Below are positions 6,145-30,950 of a stretch of 64,000 nt of DNA, one piece after another. This DNA comes from Ferrimicrobium acidiphilum DSM 19497 (GTDB lineage: Bacteria; Actinomycetota; Acidimicrobiia; Acidimicrobiales; Acidimicrobiaceae). The stretch spans positions 1 through 64,000 of the forward strand of contig NZ_JXUW01000008.1 of the NCBI RefSeq assembly GCF_000949255.1, written 5' to 3'. The notes beneath the pieces are model-generated. The model was not told the DNA's origin. It worked only from the letters and a program-made list of their open reading frames with translations, and ran no database searches. A program made the translations under genes and the position numbers. The first letter of the stretch is position 1, and every line of letters starts with the position of its first letter.

Positions 6145-6744
6145 GTGTCAAAAGGATACCCAATTGGACCACGTCTATTAAAGGCGCGTGAAGCTTCTGG
6201 CCTCTCGCTCTCCGATGTCGCAGGCAAGACGGAGCTATCAAAGGGCTTTCTTTCTCGTGTGGAGCGAGGGCTAGTCTCTCCTTCGGTGGACTCACTGATT
6301 GCGATTTGCGAAGTCGTTGGTCTCTCCATGGAGGAACTTTTTGCTAAGCCTGCGTATCAGATAACACGTGCATCTGAGCGTCAACGAGCTGTTCTGCCTG
6401 GAGAAATGATCATTGACACCCTTCTCACTTCATCAACAGAGAAACACGTGACAGTGATTGAGACGACTGCGGGTCCAACAGGGACAGGTGGTGATGCACT
6501 CTATTCGATGCCGACCGAGTGCGAAGTGTGTTACGTCGTATCGGGAAGCATCGAGTTTATTCTCGACGGTGAAGTGCTTCTTCTTGCTTCGGGGGATGCA
6601 CTTACCTTCAATGGGACAACGCCCCACACATGGTGCAACGTCTCGGCGACCGAAGATGTTCGTATCCTCTGGGTCCTCGCCCCGGCACTACCAAACCCGT
6701 GGATAAAGGGGACAATTGTCGGACCCAGAGAAATACCGATTTAA
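6145..6744 (+). CDS. XRE-family regulator with C-terminal cupin
   Basis: 199 aa starting with GTG. Residues about 8-65 form a Cro/C1 helix-turn-helix (LSLSDVAGKTELSKGFLSRV). Residues about 105-185 form a small-molecule-binding cupin barrel. Such HTH-cupin regulators usually control a neighbouring transporter or catabolic gene and sense its substrate. It lies 16 nt after the NCS1 permease and is probably cotranscribed with it, so feedback control of that permease is the simplest reading. The ligand is unknown. Confidence 0.85.
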   Translation: MSKGYPIGPRLLKAREASGLSLSDVAGKTELSKGFLSRVERGLVSPSVDSLIAICEVVGLSMEELFAKPAYQITRASERQRAVLPGEMIIDTLLTSSTEKHVTVIETTAGPTGTGGDALYSMPTECEVCYVVSGSIEFILDGEVLLLASGDALTFNGTTPHTWCNVSATEDVRILWVLAPALPNPWIKGTIVGPREIPI

Positions 6745-7123
6745 GTCCATAGAGCAGACGGGAAAGAAGTCATCTGATGTCATCGCACTCCATTAATGCG
6801 GACTACCCCCTTATCCCGGTAGGTTACGCAGAGCACAGATCGAACTTGACGATCCTGGGTTCAACGAGGTGGAGGTAAAAACAGCAATTGCTGACGTCTG
6901 AGGCTCTAATCTTCATGTACTCGACGACGATTGGGACGTTCGCTTCACGATGGTGGTGGGACGTGAAGGCTCAGGGTTGGCCATACCAGCTAGATGTGCA
7001 ATTTTCGCAAATTCATCACACGGACGCCCAACATGTGTTACTGTAACATTCGTTAGTGCGCATACACTAATGCAGGCTCCGACCGGTGCCGGGTCGGAGT
7101 GCCGTGTTGCAAAGGGGGGATCA
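6745..7123. other. Intergenic region upstream of the sulfur-oxidation operon
   Basis: 379 bases. Short open frames run through it on both strands, but none has a credible start and domain. The right part holds the palindromes annotated at 7036-7070 and the ribosome site of tusA (AAAGGGGGGA, 7111-7120). Confidence 0.5.
7036..7070 (+). promoter_or_regulatory. Tandem palindromes, candidate operator of the sHdr operon
   Basis: Two adjacent inverted repeats lie 55-90 nt before the tusA start: TGTTAC-T-GTAACA (7036-7048, perfect) and TTAGTG-N6-CACTAA (7053-7070). TACACT at 7063-7068 is a possible -10 hexamer inside the second. An ArsR-family regulator encoded at the other end of the cluster is the obvious candidate ligand. 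I could not find an equally good copy near that regulator's own gene. Confidence 0.45.
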
Positions 7124-7360
7124 GTGGCGTATGAACCGTCTAAAACTCTAGATTGTACTGGGCTCCAGTGCCCGCTACCGGTCATAAAAACTTCACAGGC
7201 CATCAAGACACTAGAGATTGGTGACGTGCTTGAACTTCTGGCTACCGATCCTGGTGTTGAGCCCGACATGAACGCGTGGACCACCAGGACGGGCAATCAA
7301 CTCTTGGAGATCACAAAGGATGGCGACGTCTTTCATGTGTTGATCAAGCGTGCTCGCTGA
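7124..7360 (+). CDS. tusA: TusA-family sulfur carrier protein
   Basis: 78 aa. The family motif LDCTGLQCPLPV carries the sulfur-binding Cys16 (C-P-x-P), with an extra Cys at position 11. TusA proteins hold sulfane sulfur as a persulfide and hand it between DsrE-type proteins and oxidising enzymes in the cytoplasm. I chose the GTG at 7124 because AAAGGGGGGA sits just before it and the protein then has the normal length; the same frame is open from 6950. It is the first gene of the sHdr operon, directly after tandem palindromes, and dsrE follows 79 nt later. Confidence 0.9.
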   Translation: MAYEPSKTLDCTGLQCPLPVIKTSQAIKTLEIGDVLELLATDPGVEPDMNAWTTRTGNQLLEITKDGDVFHVLIKRAR

Positions 7361-7439
7361 CGGTGCATTCTTCCAGTGCGAGATCTACCGTCGAGACAGA
7401 GTGGGCATTGTAGGCCCCTGAGCAGAAAAGGAACACGCG

Positions 7440-7823
7440 ATGTGGAGTGGTGAATTCGAAGGCAAGGTTCTCTATGTGCAAACTCATGGGGAGAATGACC
7501 CCGGCCGTTGCGCTACCCCTTTCTTTCTAGCGGCGTCAGCGGCGGCCATGGAGGTCGAAGTGGGAATCTACTTCACGATGTATGGCCCGCAGCTGTTGAA
7601 GAGGACTGTGGTGGACAAGATCGGTCCGAAGGGTGATCGTGGCCAGCGACTCTCCTATTTCATAAAACAGGCTACCGACCTCGGTGTGAGACTTTGGGTG
7701 TGTCAACCCTCCTTGGATCTCAACGACCTTACGATTGAGGACCTGATCGAAGGTGTGGACATGATTGGTGGTGCTGCATTCAACGATCTCGCGATGAATG
7801 CTGATGCGGTGGTCTCGTTCTGA
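7440..7823 (+). CDS. DsrE-family sulfurtransferase (DsrE3-like)
   Basis: 127 aa, small soluble DsrE/F fold. Cys88 in RLWVCQPSLDLNDL is at the place of the conserved active Cys of DsrE3-type proteins; Cys24 is a second cysteine. These proteins exchange sulfane sulfur with TusA in the cytoplasm, and dsrE-tusA genes are regular partners of shdr clusters. The ribosome site (AAAAGGAA) lies at 7427-7434. Its stop overlaps the hdrC1 start by one base (TGATG). A second DsrE-like gene lies at the far end of the operon. Confidence 0.85.
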   Translation: MWSGEFEGKVLYVQTHGENDPGRCATPFFLAASAAAMEVEVGIYFTMYGPQLLKRTVVDKIGPKGDRGQRLSYFIKQATDLGVRLWVCQPSLDLNDLTIEDLIEGVDMIGGAAFNDLAMNADAVVSF

Positions 7824-8542
7824 TGCCAGCGACTACCAAGGATCCCTATCTGAAGCGTGATCATGTTGCAGGGTACGACGATGTGGATCGTCAGACGAAA
7901 GAGCGTTTGATCTCGAAAGTGATGGTCGACTCTCGTTTCGGAGACTATCTCTACGGATGTTACGAGTGTGGGATCTGCGTGGCCGCATGTCCTTCTGCAC
8001 GTTTTTATGATTTCTCCCCGCGCAGAATAGCGCAGGCAGCTGCGCGAAGAGACGTTGATTTAATGTTCCAGCAGATGCAAGAGGATATTTGGGAGTGTTC
8101 GCAGTGCTTCTCATGTCTTCGGTGTCCAAGAGGGAATAATCCAGGGGGGATAATTACTATTATGCGAGAGGTTGCCGTAAAAGAGGGGCTCCATTCGGCT
8201 AAGGATGCCCTCGCCGGGTATTCCCGTATCATCTATAAGATCATGTCAACTGGGACCCAGGTGTCACCAGATATGCTTCAGCCAGACGCATTCCCGGATT
8301 GGGGTCCCGAAGTTAAGGACGTCTCGGAAAATCTTGATCTATGGCGTAGAATGCTGCCACCTGAGACGATGCACACCACGACAACGGGTTGGAAAGTTGC
8401 CGATAGAACCCTGGTCGAGCTTTATGTAATTTGGCTCGATACTGGAGCACTCGACATGATTGCACAGGTAGATCAAGGAATTCATATGATTCTAGAGGAG
8501 ATTATGGAAGAGAAATTGGAAGAGGAAGGAATTGAGATATGA
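7823..8542 (+). CDS. hdrC1: sHdrC1, iron-sulfur subunit of sulfur-oxidising Hdr-like complex
   Basis: 239 aa, HdrC type. The first [4Fe-4S] motif is classical (C46-x2-C-x2-C-x3-C56-P). The second reads C92-x2-C95-x2-C98-x2-C101-P, one residue short of the usual spacing between the last two cysteines. The protein transfers electrons within the cytoplasmic sHdr complex that oxidises lipoate-bound sulfur. The C-terminal third has no known domain and ends in a very acidic tail (MEEKLEEEGIE). Translationally coupled to the genes on both sides. Confidence 0.88.
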   Translation: MPATTKDPYLKRDHVAGYDDVDRQTKERLISKVMVDSRFGDYLYGCYECGICVAACPSARFYDFSPRRIAQAAARRDVDLMFQQMQEDIWECSQCFSCLRCPRGNNPGGIITIMREVAVKEGLHSAKDALAGYSRIIYKIMSTGTQVSPDMLQPDAFPDWGPEVKDVSENLDLWRRMLPPETMHTTTTGWKVADRTLVELYVIWLDTGALDMIAQVDQGIHMILEEIMEEKLEEEGIEI

Positions 8543-9729
8543 CTGACACTGCAATATCGGTGATTATTGGAAAGAAGGAGAAGTTCGAGCGGATACCAGA
8601 TCGGCGCTCGGAGGATTTTCATGATCGCCTTTTCGAACTGGAAGCTGATGGTGAGCTAGTAGTTCAGAGGATAACTGGCGATTTTGTTGAGGTTCCAACG
8701 AAGTATGGCATCATAAAGAAGATCCAGAAATCCAACCTATGGCACCACAAGTCCTGTGGCCAATGTGGTCATATTCCGGGATACTCAACATCTATTTTCT
8801 GGATCATGCGAAAACTAGGATATGAGTACGTAGATCCTGAAGACCAGACATCATGTACAGCCTGGAATTATTACGCGTCCGCGACGTCGAATCAGGCCGC
8901 TCAAGCAGCTGTTGCGGTGAGAAATTTCGCAGCGGCGTACGAGACTGGCAACTTCCCTCTCATTCATTGTGGCACGTCGTACGGTCATTACAAGGAAGTG
9001 AGGGCCGAGTTGCTTCATGATGCCGCTTTGCGCCAGCAGGTTACCAAGGTTCTTAGTAGGCTTGGTAAGCGCCTGGTGTTGCCCGAGGAGATCGTGCACT
9101 ACTCGGAGTGGCTCTATGCCGTACGAGATGAAATCAGTGCAAGGGCGGTCCGTGACGTGTCGGGCATTGCCGTCACTGTCCACCCCGCCTGTCACTACTA
9201 CAAGCTCGTTGAGGGTGACGCGATCTTCGACCCGGATGTCTATCACGGGCAACGCACTGCGGCGGTGAGTGGGCTGGTGTTGGCACTCGGGGCTGATCTC
9301 AGAAATTACTCGACCTTCTTCGATTGCTGCGGGTTCGGCTTTCGGCACATCCTTGTCCAGAGGGACTTTACGCGCTCTTTCTCGACGCTGAGGAAGATAG
9401 AAGTGATGAAAGAGGAGGCCGACCCAGACGTCGTCCTCACCCATGACACCGGTTGTGTCACTGCCCTTGATAAGAGTCAGTTCGCTGCAGAGGCCCACGA
9501 TCGTAATGTTGGCGTTCCGGTGATGAGTGAGGCTCAGTTCGCGGCGCTGGCGATGGGAGCCCATCCCTTCAAGGTGGCTCAGCTCCATTGGCATTCCACC
9601 AACTATCGTCCGCTGCTTGAGAAGATGGGGATCGACTGGCGGGCGGCTTGGGCTGAGTTCCAAGAGGACGCCGAGCGGTTGAAGAGTGGGGGGCAAGAGT
9701 TCCTCACTTGGGCAGATGTCGACGCATAG
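8539..9729 (+). CDS. hdrB1: sHdrB1, CCG-domain subunit
   Basis: 396 aa, HdrB type with two cysteine-rich (CCG) domains. The C-terminal domain keeps the motif (HPACHYYK, then FDCCGFGF, then HDTGC). The N-terminal one is reduced: a single Cys in QTSCTAW where CC is expected, and HCGTS in place of CxxC. HdrB subunits of methanogens bind noncubane clusters that cleave heterodisulfides; in sulfur oxidisers the subunit is thought to act on lipoate-bound sulfur. Overlaps hdrC1 by 4 nt. Confidence 0.88.
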   Translation: MTDTAISVIIGKKEKFERIPDRRSEDFHDRLFELEADGELVVQRITGDFVEVPTKYGIIKKIQKSNLWHHKSCGQCGHIPGYSTSIFWIMRKLGYEYVDPEDQTSCTAWNYYASATSNQAAQAAVAVRNFAAAYETGNFPLIHCGTSYGHYKEVRAELLHDAALRQQVTKVLSRLGKRLVLPEEIVHYSEWLYAVRDEISARAVRDVSGIAVTVHPACHYYKLVEGDAIFDPDVYHGQRTAAVSGLVLALGADLRNYSTFFDCCGFGFRHILVQRDFTRSFSTLRKIEVMKEEADPDVVLTHDTGCVTALDKSQFAAEAHDRNVGVPVMSEAQFAALAMGAHPFKVAQLHWHSTNYRPLLEKMGIDWRAAWAEFQEDAERLKSGGQEFLTWADVDA

Positions 9730-9746
9730 GGATTGAGGAGCGAGTA

Positions 9747-10793
9747 ATGCAGGAGAGAGTGGTGGTCATTGGCGGCGGACCGGCCGGAATTTCGGCGGCC
9801 ATTGCGGCCGCGGAATTAGGGGCGCCGGTCACCGTTGTAGAGAAGAATGCCTACTTGGGTGGACGTCCGATCGAGGAGAATTATGCTTCGTTGACGCCAT
9901 ATCTGGAGAGCGCCGAGGAGGTCATGGGGAGGTTGATTGAGCAGCTGATTGCCTTTGACAATGTGGAGGTACTCACAAGTTCGGAGGTGATCGGAAAGTC
10001 GGGAGATGCAGGGGCATTCGAGTTAGATGTTCTTACGGGATCCACGGTATCAAAGCTCACGGCGAACTCGATCGTCATAGCGACTGGCTTCACCCATTTC
10101 GATCCCGGTCGCGAAACCCAGCTTTATGGATACTACGAGTTTGATGACGTCCTTGCTCTCCAGGATCTTGAGGCAATGCTGAAGGAAGGCAATGTCGTGC
10201 GTCCCTCGAACGGGGAGACACCACAGCGCATCTGTTTTGTCCAGTGTGTAGGGTCCCGCGATAGACAGATCGGGAATGAATACTGCTCCAAAGTCTGCTG
10301 TGGGGTCGCGTCCAAGGAGGCAATAGAGGTCAAGCTTGCGATCCCCTCGGCCGAGGTATTCATCTTCTACATAGACATGCGGATGTATGGCTATTGGGAG
10401 AGTCAAATCTACTGGCCGGCCCAGGAAAAGCACCATGTTCAATACGTCAAGGGCATCATCACTGAGGTGCTCCCGAAGGACGGCAAGTTACTTGTGCGGG
10501 GAGAGGACACCACCATGGGTCGACCGATGGAGGTGCTGATGGACATGGTGGTCCTTTCGGTTGGGATGGAGGCCTCACCTGGGACGAGGAGAATGGCCGC
10601 TCTTCTCGGTGTTCAACAGAACAAGTATGGATTCGTAGAGGCGGTTCATTCGCCCCTGGACACCGTCTCCACCTCGGTAAACGGCATCTATGCAGTCGGT
10701 GCTGCGCTCGGCCCTAGCGACCTTGAGGATTGCGCTTCGACCGGTGGTTTGGCGGCAGCTAAGGCAGTACGTGACCTTCACGCGCTTGTCTAG
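9747..10793 (+). CDS. hdrA: sHdrA, FAD-containing subunit
   Basis: 348 aa, the short HdrA of sulfur oxidisers. It starts with an FAD-binding Rossmann motif (VVVIGGGPAGISAA) and has the HdrA iron-sulfur signature CVGSRDRQ...YCSKVCCG near residues 165-185. It holds the flavin where electrons from the cysteine-rich subunits converge. The start at 9747 follows GAGGAG at 9735-9740; the same frame is open from 9708, inside hdrB1. Unlike methanogen HdrA it has no extra ferredoxin modules. Confidence 0.9.
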   Translation: MQERVVVIGGGPAGISAAIAAAELGAPVTVVEKNAYLGGRPIEENYASLTPYLESAEEVMGRLIEQLIAFDNVEVLTSSEVIGKSGDAGAFELDVLTGSTVSKLTANSIVIATGFTHFDPGRETQLYGYYEFDDVLALQDLEAMLKEGNVVRPSNGETPQRICFVQCVGSRDRQIGNEYCSKVCCGVASKEAIEVKLAIPSAEVFIFYIDMRMYGYWESQIYWPAQEKHHVQYVKGIITEVLPKDGKLLVRGEDTTMGRPMEVLMDMVVLSVGMEASPGTRRMAALLGVQQNKYGFVEAVHSPLDTVSTSVNGIYAVGAALGPSDLEDCASTGGLAAAKAVRDLHALV

Positions 10794-10803
10794 GTAGTGG
10801 AGA

Positions 10804-11541
10804 ATGATACAGGTCCAGCTAGCCGATATCGAGGCGGCACGAGAGTTTTCGACGATGATATCGATGCAGGTTTCGATGGAGAGTCAGTTGGCGTTAGAGC
10901 GAAGATTGGCGGTTCGTCGGGAATATGTCCTCGATCTTGCAGACAGGGTAGATCTTGCACCAGCTGCATTGAACGAGTTATTGGGCCTATTCTTTGCGGT
11001 GCGTCGACATCGCAGGGAGATCCTGGCTGAGGCTGATCGCGAGATCCTCGTAGCGGGAATCCGGATGGCGTGCTCTGGCGAAGGGGCTCATCAGGTTTAT
11101 GAGACGATCACGGAATGCGGATTTCATGACCACGGACTTTTGCGCGACCTAGCATCAGAGGTGCTTCATTGCGCTGACCCGCAGTTGCATCCCCTCTGGC
11201 GCAGATGGGTACTCGATCCCGTACAGGAGACGGGTGCGTTGGCACTGATTGTTGAGGATCCGACCGACCTCTATGGCTCCAACGACGGTGCGACCTACGA
11301 TCGAGTTCGATTTGCCACCGAGTTTCTCCTCCAGACGCTTGGCGCTGCGTCGCTTCTCGTTGGGCCGGAGGGTAGTCCTTATGCCTTTGACGTGTTCCTT
11401 GCTGGTATTTACGGGGTCTATTCCTCGACGATGATCAAGATGCGCATGACCAAGGAGTTCAATAGCTTGCTACCAGATTTGGGTGAATTTATGGGACGCA
11501 TTCTCGGAGTGAAGGGGGAGTTGGATGCCGATAGGGGGTAG
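10804..11541 (+). CDS. sHdrH-like conserved protein of the sHdr cluster
   Basis: 245 aa, mostly helical, soluble, without Fe-S or nucleotide motifs. By position between hdrA and the next HdrC/HdrB gene it corresponds to the conserved hypothetical gene (Hyp/HdrH) found in shdr clusters of sulfur oxidisers. Three cysteines (in MACSGEG, ITECGFHD and VLHCADP) are scattered. Function is unknown in the family as far as I know. Its 3' end overlaps the following gene by 17 nt, suggesting translational coupling. Confidence 0.7.
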   Translation: MIQVQLADIEAAREFSTMISMQVSMESQLALERRLAVRREYVLDLADRVDLAPAALNELLGLFFAVRRHRREILAEADREILVAGIRMACSGEGAHQVYETITECGFHDHGLLRDLASEVLHCADPQLHPLWRRWVLDPVQETGALALIVEDPTDLYGSNDGATYDRVRFATEFLLQTLGAASLLVGPEGSPYAFDVFLAGIYGVYSSTMIKMRMTKEFNSLLPDLGEFMGRILGVKGELDADRG

Positions 11542-12832
11542 CAAGCAGCCGCCAGTGATAACCGAGCTGGAGGAGGCCATCGTGGTCTCGCAGCTCTCGG
11601 GACGGGAGTGGGATGTCTCTGGGTCAACGTCAAGAATGCTCGGATCAAGAGTGCTGACCGACTACAGCTCAGCTGGCTTTGCCAAGATTGCTGCACTTGA
11701 AGGAGGAGAGTCTCTTGAGTTTTGCTATGGGTGTGGAAAGTGCGTTCCGGTTTGCCCAGTGGACCTCGTATCTGAGTACGGACCGAGAAAGATCCACCGT
11801 GGAGTGCAGACAGGATTGGACCTCTTCCGGGCTGATGAGCTTTGGATGTGTACGACCTGTGGCAATTGCCTCCGAGTGTGTCCAAAGCAGGTCAACATGA
11901 TCGAAGTCATGCCGGCGGTTCGAGAGGTTGCCATGGCTGACGGTACTATACCCGAAGAACTGCAGCAGGTTATGGAGAAGACCTTTCGCTATGGTAATGC
12001 GTTGGGGGAGAATCCGCGGCGACGGCACGCATGGACGAGGGGCGCTGATGTCGAGGTGCGCGTTCTGGCGAACGATCCACGCCCGGTAGACGTGCTTTTC
12101 TACGTGGAGGACTACTGGAGCTATCATCCGAGAGGGCAGCAAGCAGCCCAAGCTTTCGCGCGTATTCTTGCCAGCCTGGATGTGGATTTTGCGATCTTGG
12201 GTGCCGAGGAGAAGACGTTGGGGGATTCGCAACGTTTGGCGGGCGAGAAGGGACTGTTCGAGGCGCTGATGGAGGAGGTCGTAGAGGTGCTCTCCAAGTA
12301 TCAGTTCAAACGGATTGTCACTCCAGACCCCCATGGCTTCAACGCGCTGCGGAAAGTCTATCCCAAGCATGGACACAACTTTGAGGCATTGCACTATTCG
12401 CAGTTGTTGGCTTCGATGGTAGATCGTATGGAGTTTCAAGGAAGACTTGATGCCAAGGTCACGTTCCACGATCCGTGTTATCTCGGACGCCACAATGGGG
12501 AGTATGAGGCGCCGCGCAAGTTGTTGGAGGCGATCCCGGGTGTTGATCTCTTGGAGATGGGCCGGTGCCGTGAGAACTCCTATTGCTGTGGCGGTGGAGG
12601 AGGAGGTATGTGGCTCGATGGATTTAATTCGAATCACGTGTCGGAGCGGCTTTCGGAACGCCGAGTTCGAGAGGCTGCGGATACCGGTGCGGATATTCTC
12701 GCCGTCGCTTGCCCGTATGAGGTATCGCGGTTTGAGGACGCAGCCAAGTCGACTGGCAACGAACACTTGCGAGTCATGGATATTGCCGAGATGCTGGATA
12801 TAGCAATGCGTGCACAGGACTGGAGGAGTTGA
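11525..12832 (+). CDS. sHdrB3-type fusion of HdrC and HdrB
   Basis: 435 aa. Two classical [4Fe-4S] motifs (Cys67, 70, 73, 77 and Cys109, 112, 115, 119, each closing with CP) are followed by a C-terminal CCG domain (HDPCYLGRHNG, then YCCGGGGGG, then ACPYE). Thus HdrC2 and HdrB2, separate in the classical cluster, are one polypeptide here. This fusion followed by etfBA fits the second (Etf-linked) type of shdr cluster; that type assignment is from memory of the literature. The start overlaps the preceding gene. Confidence 0.85.
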   Translation: MPIGGSKQPPVITELEEAIVVSQLSGREWDVSGSTSRMLGSRVLTDYSSAGFAKIAALEGGESLEFCYGCGKCVPVCPVDLVSEYGPRKIHRGVQTGLDLFRADELWMCTTCGNCLRVCPKQVNMIEVMPAVREVAMADGTIPEELQQVMEKTFRYGNALGENPRRRHAWTRGADVEVRVLANDPRPVDVLFYVEDYWSYHPRGQQAAQAFARILASLDVDFAILGAEEKTLGDSQRLAGEKGLFEALMEEVVEVLSKYQFKRIVTPDPHGFNALRKVYPKHGHNFEALHYSQLLASMVDRMEFQGRLDAKVTFHDPCYLGRHNGEYEAPRKLLEAIPGVDLLEMGRCRENSYCCGGGGGGMWLDGFNSNHVSERLSERRVREAADTGADILAVACPYEVSRFEDAAKSTGNEHLRVMDIAEMLDIAMRAQDWRS

Positions 12833-12833
12833 G

Positions 12834-13607
12834 ATGCACATCGTCGTGGCCATGCGCCAACTGGCAGATCTCGTCGAAGAGCTAGAAGTCGACGGACAGG
12901 GTACCGATATCGATCGCGACTTTGTGAAGTTCGTATCGAACGAGTGGGATGAGGCGGCCTTGGAGGAAGCCCTGACTATTAAGGATGAGAGCGGTGCTGC
13001 CATCACCGTTGTTGCCCTAGATGAGCCGGATGTCGATCAGACGTTGTATGCGGCATTGGCTAAGGGTGCTGATCGTGCCGTGAAGTTAACGGGCAATGAC
13101 CCTTTCAGCTGGATTAGGACACGTGAGCGGGCACAGCGACTCGCATCCTTCATCGCGCAGGAGACCTTCGATCTTGTGCTCACAGGTGTTCAAGCCGCTG
13201 ATGACCTGGACGGACAGCTCGCTGGCGTTCTTGGATCGCTGCTCGATGTGCCTCACGCCGCGGTGGTGGTGGGGGTCGAATCGACGGGCTCATCGCTTCG
13301 GATTGCTCAGGAGCTAGGTGGTGGCTTGGTTGGAGTGAGCGAATTGCAGCTTCCTTCCGTGCTGGGCATCCAGGCTGCCAGACAAGCTCCTCGCTATGCG
13401 TCGATCACCAGAATCAGGCAGGCGATGCAGACACAGAAAATCGAGGAGCAAGAGGTGACGCTCGACACTCCAGTGACTCAGGTGAAGGTGCGGAGACTTT
13501 ATCCACCCGAGAAGCAAGGTAGCGCCACCATGTTCAATGGTTCCGCGAAGGATGTGGCGGCGGAGATTGTAGCCATTTTGCGGTCAAAGGGTCTCGTGCA
13601 GGCCTAG
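12834..13607 (+). CDS. etfB: Electron transfer flavoprotein beta subunit
   Basis: 257 aa with the EtfB beginning MHIVVAMRQ, and the region around GVQAADDLDGQ...LGSLLDVPHA that contacts AMP/FAD in the family. With EtfA it would take electrons from the sHdr complex and pass them to the membrane oxidoreductase encoded next. Start chosen at 12834, one base after the stop of the preceding gene and after GGAGG at 12822-12826. Whether this EtfAB bifurcates cannot be judged by eye. Confidence 0.9.
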   Translation: MHIVVAMRQLADLVEELEVDGQGTDIDRDFVKFVSNEWDEAALEEALTIKDESGAAITVVALDEPDVDQTLYAALAKGADRAVKLTGNDPFSWIRTRERAQRLASFIAQETFDLVLTGVQAADDLDGQLAGVLGSLLDVPHAAVVVGVESTGSSLRIAQELGGGLVGVSELQLPSVLGIQAARQAPRYASITRIRQAMQTQKIEEQEVTLDTPVTQVKVRRLYPPEKQGSATMFNGSAKDVAAEIVAILRSKGLVQA

Positions 13608-13631
13608 CTATATGGAGATGAGGAGCATTAG

Positions 13632-14591
13632 ATGACGGTAGCTGTTTTGGTGATCGCGGAGCGAGTAACTGGGGAACACCCTGATGTGACCTTTGAGCTT
13701 TTGGGGAAGGGCCGAGAGCTTGCGGATGAGCTTTCGGGTGAACTCGGTGTAATCGTAGCCAATGACATAGGCCAGGAGGCGACATTCGGTGTTGCCGATG
13801 CTCTCTACTTGGTTGAGGGCATGGAGGCCGGATACAGTGCACCACAATGGGAGATGGCGATCGGTGCGGTAATTGAGAGTGTCTCACCGCAGGTGATTTT
13901 GGTAAGTACTGGAACAGTAGGTATTGATCTGGGGGGAGCGTTGGCAACGAGATTCAATACTCCAATCGCCTCTTACGTTCTCGATGCTGTGATGCAAGAT
14001 GGTTGCCTGGTGGTCACTTCGCAACTCTACGGTGGAAAATTGCTATCAGAGGGTGAAATCGATACCTTTCCTGCCTTCGTTTCGGTGCTGCCCGGTTCTC
14101 TATCTGCCGATAAGGGTAGGGCGGTGGGGAGTCCAAGAGTAGAGCGTTTTAACATTAGCGACCAGTTGGCAACTGTCAAGGGAAGAGGGGTAGAGCTTCG
14201 CGAACCTGATAGCAGTGGCGTCGACATTACTGCGGCGCCGCTGCTCGTATCTGTAGGGCGAGGCATTGGTTCGAAGGAGAACCTGGAGTTGGTGGCTGAA
14301 CTCGCAGAGGCGATGAAGGCTCCACTTTCGGCCTCACGTCCGGTGATTGATCAGGGTTGGTTGCCTAAGCCACACCAAGTAGGCAAATCCGGAAAGAAGG
14401 TAAGGCCCGCGGTGTATCTGGCCTTTGGCATATCTGGCGCGCCTGAACATCTTGAAGGTATGCGCAATGCAGAGACGATCATCGCGTGCAATACAGATCC
14501 GAATGCGCCGATCTTTGAGATCGCCCATTATGGGACGACCCTGGACCTGTTCGACCTGGTTCCTGAGTTGACCGATATCGTCGGAGGCTAA
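13632..14591 (+). CDS. etfA: Electron transfer flavoprotein alpha subunit
   Basis: 319 aa. The C-terminal FAD-binding domain shows the EtfA signatures: GRGIGSKENLELV, SRPVIDQGWLP, QVGKSGKKVRPAVYLAFGISG and CNTDPNAPIFEIAHYG. The N-terminal domain pairs with EtfB. Its ribosome site (GATGAGGAG) is at 13616-13624. It is followed 2 nt later by the EMO-like gene, so the three products are made together. Confidence 0.92.
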   Translation: MTVAVLVIAERVTGEHPDVTFELLGKGRELADELSGELGVIVANDIGQEATFGVADALYLVEGMEAGYSAPQWEMAIGAVIESVSPQVILVSTGTVGIDLGGALATRFNTPIASYVLDAVMQDGCLVVTSQLYGGKLLSEGEIDTFPAFVSVLPGSLSADKGRAVGSPRVERFNISDQLATVKGRGVELREPDSSGVDITAAPLLVSVGRGIGSKENLELVAELAEAMKAPLSASRPVIDQGWLPKPHQVGKSGKKVRPAVYLAFGISGAPEHLEGMRNAETIIACNTDPNAPIFEIAHYGTTLDLFDLVPELTDIVGG

Positions 14592-14593
14592 GG

Positions 14594-16759
14594 ATGCTGT
14601 TCGCCATCGTAGAGACGAGGAAAATCTTCGGTGGAGAGACCGAGGTCGCAAAGATCGTTTTCTATGTCTTGGCCCTGATCACCTTGGCAATCTTCTTTGC
14701 AGGGTTCATAAAGCGGTTTCTGACCTATAATCACGGGAGGCGATTGTCCGACTTTGCCTGGCTCAGGAGGCGTGATCCTCATGATATTCAGGATGTATCG
14801 GAGCGGCCGACGGTGCCCAGTTCGTTGGTTACGATCGCGACAAATCGGACGATCATGAAGGCGAAGCGGAAGGTGGGAGTGAGTCACCTTCTTCTTTTCT
14901 GGGGATTCATCGGACTTTTCATTGCGACATCGATCCTGAGTCTCGACTACGACGTGTTGGGGAACGCGTCGCGGATCATTACCGGGCACACTTACAGTTT
15001 CTTTCAAGGCCCCTTCTACCTCGCCTACAATGCAGTTTTCGATCTTGCCGGTCTCTTGGCGCTGGTGGGAATGGTCATGCTCGCGCTTCGGCGTTGGTTC
15101 TCGAAAGAGCCTCAGCTCGATTACTCAAGGGCCCAACAGCCAGAGAGTGGTTACTCTAGAGTCAAGATCGTGATTGGAGATCACATCTTCGTGACTGGCC
15201 TTCTGTTGATTCTCATTACGGGTCTGCTGATCCAGGGGCTAAGGATCGACGGCGAGAGGTTTCCCAGCTTTGAACAGTGGACCTGGCTGGGTTATTTGAT
15301 CGCCAAGGGGCTGGCAGTGTTGGGGATTAGTTCTGCCGGTGCAAGAGCGATTCATGCATGGTTGTGGTGGGTACATGTGGGGCTTGCATTGGCGTTTGTC
15401 GCCTATATTCCCTGGTCGAAGGCTTGGCATATCCTGGCCTCGCCGACCAACCTCACTGTCAGGGATTTCTCGACTATCAGGCGTATTCCTCCTCCGCCAG
15501 AGAACAAGACCGGTTACAGTTCAGTTGATGACCTCACACCAAAGGAACTCCTAGGTCTCGATTCCTGTACGAAATGTGGACGTTGTCATGTTGTGTGCCC
15601 AGCTAGAACAGCTGGTGCTCCGCTTTCGCCGAGGGATCTGATTCTCGATTTGCGCCAATGGGCAGATAGCAAGCATCACATTCCGCTCCTGCTCGATACC
15701 GAGACCAGGCCGTCCCCCACCGGTCCGATGGCAGATGGTGGCTCCCTTGCTGGAGAGGTGATTGTTGCTCAAACGCTCTGGTCTTGCACGACGTGTATGG
15801 CTTGTGTTGAAGTCTGCCCCGTCGGCATCGAGCATGTGCCTACCATCATCCAGCTACGCCGATCCTTGGTCGACCAGGGAGAGATGGATCCGACCCTACA
15901 GACAGCTCTCCAGAATATCGCTACGCAGGGGAACTCTTTCGGGAAGAGTGCGCGTATGCGGGCGCGATGGACGAAGGGACTGGATTTCCCTATCGCGGAT
16001 GCTCGTACGGAGCACGTCGAGTACCTATGGTTTCTTGGAGATTTTGCCTCATTCGATGAGCGGTTAATGGACATATCACGTACGCTTGCCAAAGTGTTGA
16101 ACGCGAGTGATATCTCCTTTGGCATCCTCTTTGAGGAGGAGCGGAATGCGGGTAACGATGTCCGGCGAGTTGGAGAGGAGGGGCTTTTCGAACTACTGGT
16201 GGAGCAGAACATGGCCGCCTTCTCCAAGGCTTCGTTTGAGAAGATTTTTACCACTGACCCTCATAGCTTTAATACTTTGCGTAACGAGTATCCTGCGTTC
16301 GGACTCGAGAAGCCCGTCCTGCACTATTCCGAACTCTTGGCTAACCTGCTCTTTACAGGGAGAGTTGCTCCAAGCAACTTAATGCGTACCGTAACCTACC
16401 ATGACCCGTGTTATCTGGGTAGGTACAATCGGATCTTCGATGCGCCTCGCGCAGTTATCAGTGCGCTTGGGTGTGAACTCGTTGAAATGCCGCGGCATGG
16501 AGTTAACTCCTTCTGTTGCGGTGCGGGAGGTGGAAGAATCTGGATGGATGACTCGGCTCTTGAAGAGCGTCCGTCTGTGAACCGTATCAAGGAGGCCTCG
16601 AATTTGGACGTCGACTATTTCGTGGTTGCGTGCCCAAAGGATTATGCGATGTTTACCGATGCGGTGAAGACTGTGGGTATCGAGAACAAGCTCAAGGTGA
16701 TTGATATTGTTGAACTGTTTGCTGAAGCCACACTTTCGAACGAACTGGTAGACGTCTGA
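14594..16759 (+). CDS. emo: Membrane Etf:quinone oxidoreductase (EMO-like, b-heme/Fe-S/CCG)
   Basis: 721 aa. The N-terminal ~280 residues have about six membrane helices with histidines placed like NarI-type b-heme ligands (VSHLLLFWGF, DHIFVTGL, IHAWLWWVHVGL). Then come two [4Fe-4S] motifs (CTKCGRCHVVCP, CTTCMACVEVCP) and a C-terminal CCG domain (HDPCYLGRYN, FCCGAGGG, VACPKD). This architecture is HdrDE-like, as described for Etf:menaquinone oxidoreductases. It should deliver Etf electrons to menaquinone at the inner face of the membrane. The stop overlaps the next start (TGATG). Confidence 0.85.
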   Translation: MLFAIVETRKIFGGETEVAKIVFYVLALITLAIFFAGFIKRFLTYNHGRRLSDFAWLRRRDPHDIQDVSERPTVPSSLVTIATNRTIMKAKRKVGVSHLLLFWGFIGLFIATSILSLDYDVLGNASRIITGHTYSFFQGPFYLAYNAVFDLAGLLALVGMVMLALRRWFSKEPQLDYSRAQQPESGYSRVKIVIGDHIFVTGLLLILITGLLIQGLRIDGERFPSFEQWTWLGYLIAKGLAVLGISSAGARAIHAWLWWVHVGLALAFVAYIPWSKAWHILASPTNLTVRDFSTIRRIPPPPENKTGYSSVDDLTPKELLGLDSCTKCGRCHVVCPARTAGAPLSPRDLILDLRQWADSKHHIPLLLDTETRPSPTGPMADGGSLAGEVIVAQTLWSCTTCMACVEVCPVGIEHVPTIIQLRRSLVDQGEMDPTLQTALQNIATQGNSFGKSARMRARWTKGLDFPIADARTEHVEYLWFLGDFASFDERLMDISRTLAKVLNASDISFGILFEEERNAGNDVRRVGEEGLFELLVEQNMAAFSKASFEKIFTTDPHSFNTLRNEYPAFGLEKPVLHYSELLANLLFTGRVAPSNLMRTVTYHDPCYLGRYNRIFDAPRAVISALGCELVEMPRHGVNSFCCGAGGGRIWMDDSALEERPSVNRIKEASNLDVDYFVVACPKDYAMFTDAVKTVGIENKLKVIDIVELFAEATLSNELVDV

Positions 16760-17064
16760 TGCACTGTCCTGCATGTGAGGCGATGCAAGTCGGTTATGAG
16801 GCGATGCACCGCCATCTCATTGAAACACACTCAGCGCTGGTTGAGATCATAGCCACGGGGAGCAGGCCGTCCTATTGTGTGAAATGTCCACTTTGCGATG
16901 ATGTGTATCGTCAAGCGATCAAGCGAGGTCACCCGGATGCTGGCTTCGTGCAGGAGTTCGAGTTGGACATCAGATTGGTAGGAATGGACATTCTTGTACA
17001 GCATCTGATCGGAGAACATCCGATTGAGATCGGATATCCCAGAGGAGAGGGGCCACATGAGTAA
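16759..17064 (+). CDS. Small protein with two zinc-finger-like sites, function unknown
   Basis: 101 aa. The first site is a C2H2 pattern (C3-x2-C6-x12-H19-x4-H24). The second is wider (C43-x2-C46 then H82-x4-H87, with Cys40 beside it). The two halves look like an internal duplication, each ending in HLIxxH. No helix long enough for the membrane. It is coupled at both ends: TGATG with the EMO-like gene and 8 nt overlap with the lipoate-binding protein gene, so it belongs to the sHdr operon. I do not recognise a characterised family. A metal-bound assembly or lipoate/sulfur-handling factor is conceivable. Confidence 0.8.
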   Translation: MHCPACEAMQVGYEAMHRHLIETHSALVEIIATGSRPSYCVKCPLCDDVYRQAIKRGHPDAGFVQEFELDIRLVGMDILVQHLIGEHPIEIGYPRGEGPHE

Positions 17065-17494
17065 GGCAAACGGTTGCGACCTGCCGGAGGATCTGTACTA
17101 TTTGATCGAGAAGCATGTCTGGGCTCGACCTGATGGTGATGAGGTGATCATTGGGCTTACTGATGTTGCCCAGAATATGGCCAAGACTATCATCTCAGTG
17201 TCGCTTAAGGCGGCTGCAAAGCCGATCAAGCGAGGCCGCAGCCTCGCAACCGTCGAAAGCGGAAAATGGGTCGGCCCCGTTCCTTGCCCTGTCGAGGGTG
17301 AGGTGATTTCGGTGAATGAACGGCTCATGACCAGCCCTGGCCTGTTGAACTCGGATCCATATGGGGAGGGTTGGGTCGCAAGAGTGCGGCCCAATGATTG
17401 GAGCAGCGACGTTACAGAGTTGGTAACCGGAGCCGATGGAGTAGGAGCCTATCGGGAGTTTTTGGATGCCGAGGGGATCGTCTGTAGCGACTAA
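17057..17494 (+). CDS. lbpA1: Lipoate-binding protein, GcvH-like (LbpA)
   Basis: 145 aa with the GcvH fold. The lipoyl-lysine motif is ESGKW with Lys70 (numbered from ATG 17057, which follows GAGAGGGG). In sulfur oxidisers such LbpA proteins carry the lipoamide to which sulfur is attached for the sHdr complex, rather than serving glycine cleavage; no gcvT or gcvP gene lies here. Modification probably needs the ligase encoded at 19693-20784. Second copy follows 2 nt later. Confidence 0.88.
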   Translation: MSKANGCDLPEDLYYLIEKHVWARPDGDEVIIGLTDVAQNMAKTIISVSLKAAAKPIKRGRSLATVESGKWVGPVPCPVEGEVISVNERLMTSPGLLNSDPYGEGWVARVRPNDWSSDVTELVTGADGVGAYREFLDAEGIVCSD

Positions 17495-17496
17495 TT

Positions 17497-17943
17497 ATGG
17501 AGACTTGGGCTGGGTGCGCACTTCCTACTGATCGTTTTTATGACCTGGTGGCCGATGTGTGGGTGAAGATCGAGGATTCTGTTGCGCGAGTCGGCATGAC
17601 CGATGTTGCGCAGACTCGGATGGGGCGGCTCGTCCAACTCAGCTGGAAGAGTCCTGGTCGCAGGGTTGAGCGGGGAAGGCCGTTGGCGGTCTTGGAAAGC
17701 GCAAAGTGGGTTGGCCCTATGATTTCGCCACTGACCGGGGTGATACGAGAGAATAACAGAGTCTCTTTCGACGCGGACGTGGCTGTGGCGAATAGAGATC
17801 CATACGAGCTTGGTTGGTTCTATGTCATAGAGTATTCGGGTGATGCAGAACTATCGGAGCTCGTCAGTGGAGATGCGGCCGTAGAGTACTATCGCGAACT
17901 CATTGACCGCGAAGGAATTCAGTGCTTTCGGTGCGCTGAATAG
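17497..17943 (+). CDS. lbpA2: Second lipoate-binding protein, GcvH-like (LbpA)
   Basis: 148 aa, paralogue of the preceding protein with the lipoyl Lys70 in ESAKW at exactly the same position. Sequences flanking the motif (WVGP) are shared; the rest has diverged, so the duplication is old. It has Cys residues near both ends (Cys7; CFRC at the C-terminus) that the first copy lacks or places differently. Two different lipoate carriers for one sHdr complex could serve different partners, but this is inference. Confidence 0.87.
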   Translation: METWAGCALPTDRFYDLVADVWVKIEDSVARVGMTDVAQTRMGRLVQLSWKSPGRRVERGRPLAVLESAKWVGPMISPLTGVIRENNRVSFDADVAVANRDPYELGWFYVIEYSGDAELSELVSGDAAVEYYRELIDREGIQCFRCAE

Positions 17944-17958
17944 TAGGAGATAGGGGGA

Positions 17959-18450
17959 ATGATGTCGAGTGATCAGACAAAGAAAATGGCCATGATCTGC
18001 TGGAGCAGTGATTTAGATCGGGTATGGCCAGTTTTGATTTTGGCTACTACCGCCGCTGCATCAGGTCTTGAGGTTGATGTATTCTTTACTTTCTGGGGCT
18101 TGAGAGTGATACAGAAGAATGACGTGCGGGTAACAGGTGATAACTGGATGCAAAAAGCCGAGTCGCTTGTAGATCCAGGGGGCACGAATCGCCTGAAGTT
18201 AGGAAAGATTAACTTCGCTGGTATGGGCACCAAGATGATTCGAACGCTGGCGACAGATCACAAAGTGGCCTCGCCTACGGAGCTGTTAGAGATGGCGGTT
18301 GATTTAGATGTCAGACTGCATCCGTGCCAGATGACCATGGATCTGTATGGGCTGACTAAGGATGATTTTATCGAAGGGATTCAACCTCCAATAGGTGCGG
18401 CTAGTTTCATCAATATGGCTGTAGAAGCCGATATCAGCATGTTGATTTGA
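17959..18450 (+). CDS. DsrE-family protein (second copy)
   Basis: 163 aa. Cys123 in RLHPCQMTMDLYGL aligns with Cys88 of the DsrE-like protein at the start of the operon, and both continue with a DLIEG/DFIEG segment. Cys14 near the N-terminus is an additional cysteine. Longer than the first copy by an insert around residues 55-100. Likely a cytoplasmic sulfur carrier or transferase working with TusA. It follows a GGAGATAGGGGGA ribosome site at 17944-17956. Confidence 0.85.
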   Translation: MMSSDQTKKMAMICWSSDLDRVWPVLILATTAAASGLEVDVFFTFWGLRVIQKNDVRVTGDNWMQKAESLVDPGGTNRLKLGKINFAGMGTKMIRTLATDHKVASPTELLEMAVDLDVRLHPCQMTMDLYGLTKDDFIEGIQPPIGAASFINMAVEADISMLI

Positions 18451-18466
18451 TGATGGTCGCAGTCGC

Positions 18467-19117
18467 TTGGTGTTAGTTTTCGCGAGAGATGATGACAAGG
18501 CTGGCGCAGCAGGCGTAAGGCGTGCAATTAGTCAGAGGGAACTTCGGTTAGTGGATGACCCCGAGTTGGCCGATGTGATTCTGGTTGAGATGTCGGATGA
18601 GTCCGATCTGCTCGAACTCAGGAGGCTGCGGTCTACAAACTCGCGCGCTATTCTCATCGCGCATACTATGTCGCAGGATCGTGAACTATGGCAGGGAGCT
18701 GAACGTGCAGGTGCCGACAGAGTAGAGAGTTCGGGCGGATTGGCGGTATTGTTGCGTCGTCTTGACAAAGGCATTCGGTCAGGGTCGAACCGGGAACGCC
18801 TGATTCCGCTGTGTGCCACCGCAGATGTTGCCGGACGTCTCGGTATCATTGCAAGCGTTGAGCATGATCTCGGCGAGCTGCTGCTAGTGAAGGGACAGGG
18901 GATGCCGGTATGTCTAGTTGGTCCATGCCCACATGCAGGAGCGCCGCTCGGATCGGCTCTGGTCGAAGATGGAGTGCTTACTTGCCCTGCTCACGGTAGT
19001 CAGTTCCTCGCCGTAAGTGGCGAACGTGTGAGAGGACCTGCAGACTGCGGATTGACGGAGCTGCGAGTAGTCGAGGAGTCCGGTCGCTATTGGGCTGTCA
19101 GCCCAGCCGTCTCTTAA
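18467..19117 (+). CDS. Degenerate receiver-like domain fused to a Rieske [2Fe-2S] domain
   Basis: 216 aa from TTG 18467 (GTG 18470 is an equally possible start). Residues 1-103 follow the alternating strand/helix pattern of response-regulator receivers but have Glu-Met where the phospho-Asp should follow VILV, and no conserved Lys, so phosphorylation is unlikely. Residues 110-216 form a soluble Rieske domain: Cys154-x-His156 and Cys173-x2-His176. Last gene of the operon. A Rieske ferredoxin-like electron carrier is the likely activity; the N-terminal part may mediate binding. I know of no described protein with this pairing. Confidence 0.75.
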   Translation: MVLVFARDDDKAGAAGVRRAISQRELRLVDDPELADVILVEMSDESDLLELRRLRSTNSRAILIAHTMSQDRELWQGAERAGADRVESSGGLAVLLRRLDKGIRSGSNRERLIPLCATADVAGRLGIIASVEHDLGELLLVKGQGMPVCLVGPCPHAGAPLGSALVEDGVLTCPAHGSQFLAVSGERVRGPADCGLTELRVVEESGRYWAVSPAVS

Positions 19118-19160
19118 TTAAGCAGGACTCACCCGATGGAGGAGTCACGACCGCAGCGAG

Positions 19161-19526
19161 CTAGGAAGCCTCTGTGTCGGGGGTTGGATCAACGTAGGTG
19201 GCGAACAGGCGTTGCTTGTGACCGACTTCGTCGTGCATGACCTCTCTCAGGGTTGCGATCACGGTGAGAATCTGTTGGTGTGAGAGCGAGTAGGTCACGG
19301 AGGTTCCCTCACGAGTCGCCTTGACCAGACCCCGATCTCTCAAAATGGCGAGGTGTTGGGAGATATTCGCTTGTGGAGATCCGATCTCCTCGACGAGGTC
19401 TGATACGGTGTGCGGCCTTTCCCCTAGCAGCGTCAAGATGAGGAGGCGTTTTGGCTCATTGAGTGCTTTGCACATTACGGATACGAGTAGTTCGTACTCT
19501 TTCCTCAGCTCTTCTAGATTCTCCAT
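19161..19526 (-). CDS. ArsR-family transcriptional regulator
   Basis: 121 aa winged helix (EPKRLLILTLLGERPHTVSDL, then PQANISQHLAILRDRGLV). Start placed at ATG 19526 after GAGGG; the same frame is open to 19604. ArsR-type repressors (SoxR/sHdrR) control shdr genes in other sulfur oxidisers and sense sulfane sulfur with two cysteines. This one has a single Cys (Cys19) in its core, so its sensing mode would differ. It is convergent with the operon, 43 nt after the Rieske gene, and downstream of the lipoate ligase gene on the same strand. Confidence 0.85.
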   Translation of the reverse strand: MENLEELRKEYELLVSVMCKALNEPKRLLILTLLGERPHTVSDLVEEIGSPQANISQHLAILRDRGLVKATREGTSVTYSLSHQQILTVIATLREVMHDEVGHKQRLFATYVDPTPDTEAS

Positions 19527-19692
19527 TGCCCTCAGGCTAGTGGTTGTGCCACCCGGAAAAGTCCGATTGGTTTGGCAACCCGAAAGGGCCCAATTGTGTG
19601 GCATCTCGGATCGATATGCGATTTAGCACGGTGCCTAGACGAGAGGAGTGCAAGCCATAGGCCATAATGAAGGACTACGCCTCGTCGGTGTG

Positions 19693-20784
19693 CTACCGTG
19701 AACTGGCGAGTTCTGTAGCTATCATCTCAAGGGGAGCAAACATATCGCTGGCCGAGACACCTGGAGACTGTTGAACTAGGGTACGGAAGATGGTCTCCCA
19801 TTCTGAACGGAGTTCTGCATCCAAGCGTCGTCCGAGGAGCGCATTCGCTAGTGAGACTGGTGCATCAAGTGGGTAGATGGTGAAGTCACCTTCCAACGTG
19901 GCATCGATAATGTTGTCGTCAGCTAGGAAAACAACCCACCTAATCAGGCCACCGCTGGACTTGAACGCCGCATGATGCATTGCTACGCCTTGTTGAATCT
20001 TCACGCCCGCAACTCGTCGGCCGCCTCCACCGTACGTCCACTGATCGCTTGCAAGGAGGCTCTCCGTGCTTGCCAACTGCTCTTTCTCTAACGGACTGAG
20101 ATTATCGAAGTAGATTTCGCGCTGCAGCCGAGCCTCCACCTGCTCGAGGTAGGTATCCACGATCGGTTCCTGTCGTGATGGTGATCCTAATTCACGGGCG
20201 ATGGACGTGACATACTCCGTCAGGTTTTGGTAAAGTTTGTCGCGCATTTTTAACGTCTCCACCTTCAGAACAGATGCCATGGTAGCCAGATCAATATCGA
20301 AGATGAAACTAGAGACCAGGAGCTCAGCTTCACCAATGCGAGCAGCTCCACAGCCACCGATCTTGCGACCCCTCACCTGTATGTCATTCACCGGTCGCAT
20401 CTCTGCGGGTATGCCAATATTTTGATAGGTCGAGACGATCGGTTCGATGAATAGTCGATATCGTGCTTCTATCGAGACAGGTAGCGAATTGGGTGAAAAT
20501 ATCCACTGCAGGAAGACTTGGTTTGCGTCCAAGTAGACCGCACCGCCACCAACTTGACGCCGGATAAGTTGGAGGCCGAATCGAGAGAGTTCCTCTAGGT
20601 CGAGCTCGCGCTGTGGATCTTGATGGTAACCGATACAAATGTAGGGTTCCGTTGGGCGAACGAGACAAATCGTGTCGGGGCTGTCTTCCGTAAAGCACTC
20701 TGCGATGGCGTGATATATCGCCTGGGATCGGAGTGGAGAGAGGTCGAAGGCCTGTATTATGCGGATAGGGCTAGCAGAATTCAT
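19693..20784 (-). CDS. lplA: Lipoate-protein ligase (LplA family, sulfur-oxidation type)
   Basis: 363 aa. The catalytic domain shows RRQVGGGAVYLD and NDIQVRGRKIGGCG, with the Lys that contacts lipoyl-AMP. A C-terminal accessory domain of about 100 residues is present, as in two-domain LplA/sLpl(AB) enzymes. It attaches lipoate (or octanoate) to the LbpA proteins encoded just before. Sulfur oxidisers with shdr clusters have their own lipoylation enzymes beside the cluster; LipS1/LipS2 sulfur insertases are not in this window. The gene reads towards the ArsR regulator gene. Confidence 0.85.
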   Translation of the reverse strand: MNSASPIRIIQAFDLSPLRSQAIYHAIAECFTEDSPDTICLVRPTEPYICIGYHQDPQRELDLEELSRFGLQLIRRQVGGGAVYLDANQVFLQWIFSPNSLPVSIEARYRLFIEPIVSTYQNIGIPAEMRPVNDIQVRGRKIGGCGAARIGEAELLVSSFIFDIDLATMASVLKVETLKMRDKLYQNLTEYVTSIARELGSPSRQEPIVDTYLEQVEARLQREIYFDNLSPLEKEQLASTESLLASDQWTYGGGGRRVAGVKIQQGVAMHHAAFKSSGGLIRWVVFLADDNIIDATLEGDFTIYPLDAPVSLANALLGRRLDAELRSEWETIFRTLVQQSPGVSASDMFAPLEMIATELASSR

Positions 20785-29229: not shown

Positions 29230-29259
29230 TGTGTGAGCGGCCTATTGGCACAGCAGATC

Positions 29260-30938: not shown

Positions 30939-30950
30939 GGAAGGAGCAGT

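Follow-up and report, generated by a model that had tools for sequence, protein, structure and literature searches.

The window analysed here is a stretch of 64,000 nucleotides, positions 1–64000 of contig C8 in the assembly of Ferrimicrobium acidiphilum DSM 19497 (3,088,654 bases, 68 contigs, 97.87% complete), and has a G+C content of 55.1%. Between positions 7124 and 19117 it carries 15 complete plus-strand genes with open frames, running from TusA to a Rieske-domain protein. The 3′ end of this run is adjoined by two minus-strand genes, an ArsR-family regulator and then a lipoate-protein ligase. The run is predicted to encode an sHdr sulfur-oxidation system, with an electron-transfer flavoprotein (Etf, subunits EtfB and EtfA), a membrane Etf:menaquinone oxidoreductase (EMO) and two lipoate-binding proteins (LbpA). 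A sequence-only reading had proposed this arrangement, an Etf-linked sHdr cluster of 15 coupled genes in a probable actinobacterium. It is borne out by Pfam content, by gene order and by the match of HdrA to the solved structure 6tjr, the host being a member of the Acidimicrobiaceae.

Neighbouring genes of the run are separated by −17 to +79 base pairs (bp), all but one of the 14 distances being at most 24 bp, as computed with start codons that we picked for HdrA, EtfB and LbpA1. Promoter- and terminator-like patterns, scanned on both strands, occur at chance level and therefore the limits of the operon are drawn from gene packing alone. Genes were named using Pfam and NCBIfam at their curated cut-offs, matches to solved structures and alignment to relatives. 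A named collection yielded 390 candidate stretches, of which 333 encode a relative of HdrB1; the best 80 of these 333 are referred to as the named loci. The genes are as follows:

7124–7360, plus: TusA sulfur carrier (PF01206, 81.5 bits; Cys16 in 70/70 aligned relatives)
7440–7823, plus: DsrE-type sulfurtransferase (PF13686 and PF02635; Cys88 in 75/76)
7823–8542, plus: sHdrC1, electron carrier with two 4Fe-4S motifs (Fer4_8; eight Cys, kept in 76/78 to 75/75)
8539–9729, plus: sHdrB1, proposed catalytic CCG subunit (PF02754; eight Cys in 80/80)
9708–10793, plus: sHdrA flavoprotein, probable start ATG 9747 (PF07992; 6tjr over full length, 247.7 bits)
10804–11541, plus: sHdrH-like protein, 245 amino acids (position; homologues in 75/80 named loci)
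11525–12832, plus: sHdrB3, an HdrC2-HdrB2 fusion and soluble paralogue of EMO (Fer4 and CCG; similarity to EMO; tree)
12810–13607, plus: EtfB, probable start ATG 12834 (PF01012; 1o94 beta subunit, 132.4 bits)
13632–14591, plus: EtfA with FAD domain (PF00766 and PF01012; solved Etf alpha subunits)
14594–16759, plus: EMO, predicted membrane Etf:menaquinone oxidoreductase, EtfD/FadF-like, 721 amino acids (9ojn, 255.2 bits)
16759–17064, plus: orf101, small protein rich in Cys and His, lying between EMO and LbpA1 and left unnamed in the sequence-only reading (14 columns invariant across 17 sequences)
17024–17494, plus: LbpA1 lipoate-binding protein, probable start ATG 17057 (PF01597, GcvH-like; Lys81 in 49/49)
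17497–17943, plus: LbpA2 lipoate-binding protein (PF01597, GcvH-like; Lys70 in 34/34)
17959–18450, plus: DsrE2-type sulfurtransferase (PF13686, 153.3 bits; Cys123 in 28/28)
18467–19117, plus: C-terminal Rieske [2Fe-2S] domain with an N-terminal half that has no assignment (PF00355)
19161–19604, minus: ArsR-family regulator (PF01022; Cys at 10 and 45 only)
19693–20784, minus: stand-alone lipoate-protein ligase of a clade called 'terminal' below (PF21948; ligase tree)

The HdrH-like protein has no Pfam or NCBIfam match, and its identity comes from its sHdrH position and its homologues rather than from a curated model. Similarly, orf101 reaches no curated cut-off in Pfam or NCBIfam. The TusA of the operon is the sole TusA match in the F. 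acidiphilum genome.

Type II sHdr is defined by shdrC1B1AHB3 and etfAB lying in one cluster (PMC11582611), and Group III hdr-lbpA clusters by two or three lbpA genes (PMC6067878). In the window, shdrC1, B1, A, H and B3 are syntenic in a single cluster, etfAB lie inside it and two lbpA genes with an intact lipoyl Lys are present. The operon is accordingly assigned to the type II (Group III) sHdr-LbpA clusters, which have been described before in Actinobacteria and Firmicutes. The best solved relative of HdrA is 6tjr (349 amino acids), which we take to be sHdrA of Hyphomicrobium denitrificans, whereas methanogen HdrA is matched partially, at 193.4 bits. By best solved match, as opposed to a tree that includes type I sequences, this HdrA is thus of the short sHdr type and not of the methanogen type. 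Methanogen-type or catabolic HdrABC is rejected as an alternative on the length and best match of HdrA, the B3 fusion and the Etf and LbpA neighbours, rather than on a full tree.

Comparison with known systems places the operon further. With the Sulfobacillus 'hdr cluster II' (type II/Group III) it shares shdrC1B1AHB3, EtfBA, a long membrane Fe-S/CCG protein, LbpA, TusA and DsrE, but the window operon begins with TusA-DsrE and ends with DsrE2-Rieske. It also contains orf101, of which no copy was found in any of the five Bacillota clusters amenable to checking. The type I sHdr of Hyphomicrobium denitrificans has C1, B1, A, H, LbpA and TusA/DsrE in common with the window; in contrast, the window has C2 and B2 fused as B3, has EtfBA and EMO in addition and is without LipS1/S2.

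Among genomes sampled from the class, 24 of 395 have HdrB1, as do 18 of 42 from the family and five of seven from the genus. The named loci come from Acidimicrobiia and other Actinomycetota, Chloroflexota, Sulfobacillus and other Bacillota, and include single Rokubacteria, Gemmatimonadetes and Calditrichaeota bins; no relative of HdrB1 was found in the viral contigs scanned. Elsewhere in the class the core genes have the same order, C1-B1-A-(H)-B3, and so they do in the 80 named loci of several phyla wherever contigs are long enough; the arrangement is not due to chance. The outer gene order differs in Bacillota. Of the 49 named loci in which the sequence extends more than 5 kilobases (kb) past HdrB3, 48 have EtfB/A downstream of it (L139 is the exception), and by a distance rule EMO follows EtfA in 23 of 24 (the exception, L081, still lists an EMO). 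The full sHdr gene set is also present in Acidimicrobium ferrooxidans (L030) and Ferrithrix thermotolerans (L032). As side observations, Amycolatopsis acididurans (L090) and Gordonia rhizosphera (L116) carry sHdr clusters with LipS genes; Etf is seen in the former and the stretch of the latter stops ahead of the Etf position. The Calditrichaeota bin L133 has no Etf within its stretch.

The residues that would bind sulfur, lipoyl groups, Fe-S clusters and haem are intact. In aligned named loci, Cys180 of HdrA is kept in 79/79 and Cys193, Cys197 and Cys198 in 78/78 each, while His98, His279 and the eight 4Fe-4S Cys of EMO are kept in 32/32. In the Rieske protein, Cys154/His156 are kept in 7/7 and Cys173/His176 in 8/8 aligned relatives. 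As this list starts from the window's own residues, a reverse check looked for changes at Cys, His and Lys positions conserved in 80% or more of relatives, in 12 proteins (all but HdrH, EtfB, EtfA and the two minus-strand genes). Here, no conserved Cys or His is changed, bar one Rieske column beyond the reach of the window protein, and two conserved Lys are changed, at HdrB1 174 and EMO 472.

At E ≤ 1e-5 the sole solved relative of EMO is 9ojn, a protein of 1042 amino acids, which is also the length given for mycobacterial EtfD in the available part of PMC13083937. There, the EtfD type is thought to reduce menaquinone, and FadF and DgcB are described as lacking the ligands of cluster D1, from which it is inferred that Etf may donate electrons to cluster D2. 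EMO shares with EtfD and FadF/DgcB a membrane haem b domain, two 4Fe-4S clusters and the ligands of a noncubane-type cluster. His98 and His279 align with the haem b ligands His78 and His241 of EtfD, the D3 and D4 4Fe-4S ligand sets are complete, and in D2 His583 and four of the five Cys are kept. Unlike EtfD, EMO is without D1 ligands, as reported for FadF/DgcB, and it goes with the sHdr cluster. Counted at 50% identity or more, fragments included, the cluster EMO is found in 20 of 42 family genomes: 16 of 18 with HdrB1 (missing in G396 and G401) and four of 24 without it (G397, G398, G404 and G405), giving a Fisher p of 4.7e-6, uncorrected for relatedness.

HdrB3 is 35% identical to EMO over 418 amino acids (239 bits), and the two have in common the ligand set H..H..H..C..CC..C; no significant match links HdrB3 to HdrB1 (best E 0.11). 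EMO is a cluster-specific relative of mycobacterial EtfD, with HdrB3 as a soluble paralogue of EMO. Both may dock the same Etf, and we infer that Etf would be reduced at HdrB3 and oxidised at EMO via like surfaces. A second EMO-like gene, 33% identical, lies on contig C7 of F. acidiphilum, and most family genomes have such a gene; its neighbours, dCTP deaminase and a DnaB-type helicase, are uninformative on its role. Derivation of the sHdr EMO from HdrB3 was considered and is unsupported, since in a midpoint-rooted tree the sHdr EMOs group with two second EMO-like genes, apart from HdrB3.

Lipoylation of LbpA is where F. acidiphilum departs from many relatives. No match to LipS1/S2, the lipoyl synthase that usually accompanies sHdr, was obtained in its genome with a LipS2 protein, a LipS1 protein or NF053742. 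The operon, which the sequence-only reading had called complete, is therefore complete in its core genes and not with respect to LipS1/S2. In many relatives a LipS module (ligase, third LbpA, LipS1, ligase, LipS2) lies inside the cluster or apart from it, and LipS1 falls within the cluster stretch of 26 of the 80 named loci. The proteins of L066 have the LipS1 and LipS2 models as their best matches, with scores of 228.3 and 186.3 bits that fall short of the respective curated cut-offs (230 and 270). Within the genus, NF053742 matches one of seven genomes (G406), against five with HdrB1. Within the class, LipS1 occurs in 10 of the 24 HdrB1 genomes and, among the 17 with completeness of 90% or more and contamination of 5% or less, in eight.

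These 17 and three congeners make up 20 tested genomes, the remaining seven of the 24 being left out. LipA is over its cut-off in all 20 and some match to the window ligase is found in 19. LipS1 is present in nine and a full-length 'terminal'-type ligase in 11 (seven placed in the tree, the rest assigned by match), with both in G014, G406 and G094. Neither kit is seen in G134 (Ferrithrix, with a ligase of another clade), in G303, whose 7.3-kb contig stops just past the first ligase of the module, or in G337, which is in 780 contigs. For complementarity of terminal ligase and LipS1, the Fisher p is 0.17, and so not significant, over the 20 genomes and 0.009 over the 17 that remain without G303, G337 and G134. 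The Ferrithrix ligase (34%, full length) was tried as a 'terminal' type and rejected; the tree places it beside the L082 ligase, outside the clade.

Three main groups emerge from the ligase tree: LipS-linked 'mid' ligases, which stand next to E. coli LplA, the first ligases of LipS modules, and the group of the window ligase. The last also holds ligases of Bacillota, Chloroflexota and deeper Acidimicrobiia, with a base support of 0.807. In addition, 22 named genomes were chosen with cluster type known. LipS1 is found in none of the 10 whose cluster has a ligase that adjoins LbpA or belongs to the terminal clade (L123, L134, L110, L119, L137, L122, L097, L099, L104 and L078; the ligases of L099 and L122 are cut and stand outside the tree). 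It is found in all nine without such a ligase in the available stretch (L140, L124, L117, L128, L090, L116, L112, L120 and L085), although five of these were already known to be LipS1-positive, two of the nine are above the family cut-off, and the L140 stretch ends inside EMO, so that a ligase beyond it would go unseen. L132, L067 and L075 are LipS1-negative. L075 has at 5745–6122, between HdrB3 and EtfB, where relatives carry the LipS module, a short ligase-like fragment that may be a remnant. L133, which is not among the 22, combines LipS1 with two ligases, one of the terminal and one of the mid clade. As G014, G406, G094 and L133 each carry both, the two lipoylation kits are not mutually exclusive.

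The cluster ligase thus falls, by its place in the tree, in a clade that mostly accompanies LipS-less clusters and is also found in Bacillota and Chloroflexota. As F. acidiphilum has no LipS1/S2 match and a ligase of this clade, its LbpA is probably lipoylated by a route other than LipS1/S2. The sLpl(AB)-LipS1/S2 assembly of sulfur oxidisers likewise has a lipoate ligase linked to lbpA, as in the window, but the window genome is without a LipS1/S2 match and its ligase clade is apart from both LipS-module ligases of Acidimicrobiia. In PMC10332631, a paper of 2023, LipS1/S2 are reported in 74.3% of sHdr bacteria and dependence of LbpA assembly on LipS1/S2 is given as an open question. LipS-less sHdr genomes are therefore already known; what is new here is the linked ligase clade. 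F. acidiphilum and those of its relatives that are without LipS offer a natural test of that question.

The explanation that best accounts for the locus overall, and that we consider probable, is a type II sHdr-LbpA operon for which we infer, by analogy with relatives that have been studied, the chemistry, its direction, the electron route and the lipoylation route as follows. TusA and the two DsrE proteins would pass sulfane sulfur to lipoylated LbpA1 and LbpA2, and an sHdrC1-B1-A-H-B3 complex would oxidise the LbpA-bound sulfur stepwise to sulfite. The noncubane-type Fe-S cluster in HdrB3 would be the exit for electrons, which EtfBA would take up and pass on to the equivalent cluster of the membrane EMO, and thence via two 4Fe-4S clusters and haem b to menaquinone. 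LbpA would be loaded by the stand-alone ligase of the cluster, a route proposed because LipS1/S2 are absent, using either free lipoate or octanoate together with a LipB-LipA fusion. In this heterotroph, the operon most likely provides supplementary electrons, drawn from sulfane sulfur of thiosulfate or organosulfur origin, and does not serve for growth on elemental sulfur (S0).

In favour of this explanation, EtfB has the 1o94 beta subunit as its nearest solved relative (132.4 bits; next, 5ol2 at 78.0), and 1o94 is presumably a non-bifurcating Etf. Several observations weigh against it. EtfA is nearest to 5ol2 (152.4 bits; 1o94, 141.4), which we take to be of the bifurcating type, so that the two subunits point to different types of Etf. 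The EtfD D2 ligand Cys712 is an Asp in EMO, and in all 24 EMO relatives with a residue there (eight others are gapped). The ArsR protein, judged by its Cys positions, has Cys at 10 and 45 only and is without the two-Cys sensor of that sulfane-sulfur repressor, for which the available part of PMC12423496 gives the conserved Cys50 and Cys116, adding that Cys-pair regulators are rare beside shdr genes. S0 oxidation is tabulated in a review as negative for the type strains of F. acidiphilum, F. thermotolerans and A. ferrooxidans (PMC8790237, Table 5). Finally, the F. acidiphilum genome paper gives sulfate as apparently the sole sulfur source and is silent on sHdr genes (PMC4417700). Among the matching literature titles listed, none reports sHdr in Ferrimicrobium, and an earlier listing of the cluster is possible. 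Of the sulfane-sulfur oxidation in the sequence-only reading, the sHdr type is upheld by sequence and the active trait is not, the type strain being tabulated as S0-negative.

A first alternative is that an intact operon runs on endogenous or organic sulfur, such as cysteine persulfide or volatile organosulfur, for detoxification or redox balancing instead of lithotrophy, and that this is why the strains are S0-negative. The three type strains that are S0-negative in Table 5 of PMC8790237 and carry a full gene set are consistent with it, as is the model host H. denitrificans, described in PMC12423496 as obligately chemoorganoheterotrophic, with thiosulfate serving as a supplement. On the other side, several Sulfobacillus, which are more distant carriers of the cluster, are S0-positive in the same table, and an S0 test is uninformative on thiosulfate and tetrathionate. 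This alternative carries real weight but is not the outcome that we expect. Either way, three S0-negative cultured type strains with the full sHdr set present a conflict of genotype and phenotype that can be resolved in culture; were the path active, the role of these iron oxidisers in acid mine water would include sulfur.

A second alternative is confined to lipoylation and holds that LbpA is lipoylated solely from scavenged lipoate, LipB-LipA being uninvolved. The failure to find LipS1/S2 and the membership of the cluster enzyme in the ligase family fit with this. Against it, LipA is over cut-off in all the tested sHdr genomes, and in F. acidiphilum LipA is fused behind LipB in one protein of 550 amino acids (C1:104000-118000, local 6590–8239, minus), which adjoins E2 and dihydrolipoyl dehydrogenase. 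The fusion may be widespread in the class, as the open frame around LipA is at least 550 in 18 of the 19 other tested genomes (339 in G406). Sole dependence on scavenging likewise carries real weight but is not the outcome that we expect.

A third alternative, that sHdr electrons go to NAD via lipoamide or the HdrA flavin while EtfBA-EMO runs in reverse and brings menaquinol electrons into sHdr, is unlikely. Direction cannot be read from sequence, and the discussion of the 2018 paper, in its available part, ties lipoate in sHdr to the problem of making NADH. However, the operon has its own Etf and an EMO of the EtfD type, thought to be menaquinone-reducing (PMC13083937, available part). The affinity of EtfB, though not of EtfA, is to a presumably non-bifurcating Etf. 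The sequence-only reading had electrons leaving via EtfAB and EMO to menaquinone and not via NAD; the former is the likeliest exit and is well supported, while the exclusion of NAD does not stand. That the cluster is a relic, no longer expressed in these iron-oxidising heterotrophs, would agree with the S0-negative type strains (PMC8790237, Table 5) and is very improbable, as all frames are open, the conserved Cys and His of the 12 proteins are kept, the unreached Rieske column apart, and HdrB1 is found in five of the seven genus genomes.

Returning to the type II sHdr-LbpA explanation, a wider proposal can be put forward tentatively, with the balance somewhat against it. Type II sHdr would have alternative lipoylation kits, one of LipS1/S2 with a third LbpA and one of a 'terminal' ligase with LipB/LipA or free lipoate. 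The LipS-free version would represent a hidden, accessory sulfur oxidation in heterotrophic, iron-oxidising Acidimicrobiaceae, and HdrB3 and EMO would be twin docks for one Etf shuttle. If so, LbpA assembly would be independent of LipS1/S2. Since clusters of this kind are known, it is the S0-negative phenotype of the cultured hosts, the lipoylation without LipS and the pairing of HdrB3 with EMO that are of interest.

The small protein orf101 is found in 15 of the 21 named loci that have both EMO and the following LbpA, and was not found in the other six, five Bacillota loci and L078. Its carriers, among L061–L132, belong to three phyla: Actinomycetota, Chloroflexota and, by one bin, Gemmatimonadetes. 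The 17 sequences show the patterns CxxC..HxH....H and CxxC..H....H, one of them departing at the second Cys, and this suggests two metal sites. An AF2 model has a pLDDT of 88.4; in a Foldseek search against the PDB it had no match at E ≤ 0.001.

Elsewhere in the window, 51404–54283 on the minus strand encodes a transketolase fused to a GlpX-type class II fructose-1,6-bisphosphatase in one frame of 959 amino acids; RubisCO and Calvin-cycle genes have been reported for F. acidiphilum, with CO2 fixation not detected (PMC4417700). Two transposase genes of different families lie at the start of the contig (93–2993). A gene group at 28279–36955 includes hydantoinase/oxoprolinase, CoA-transferase, HMGL-like, GntR and isochorismatase-type genes, and the protein encoded at 59130–60920 has a pro-kumamolisin activation domain, a feature of secreted acid proteases.

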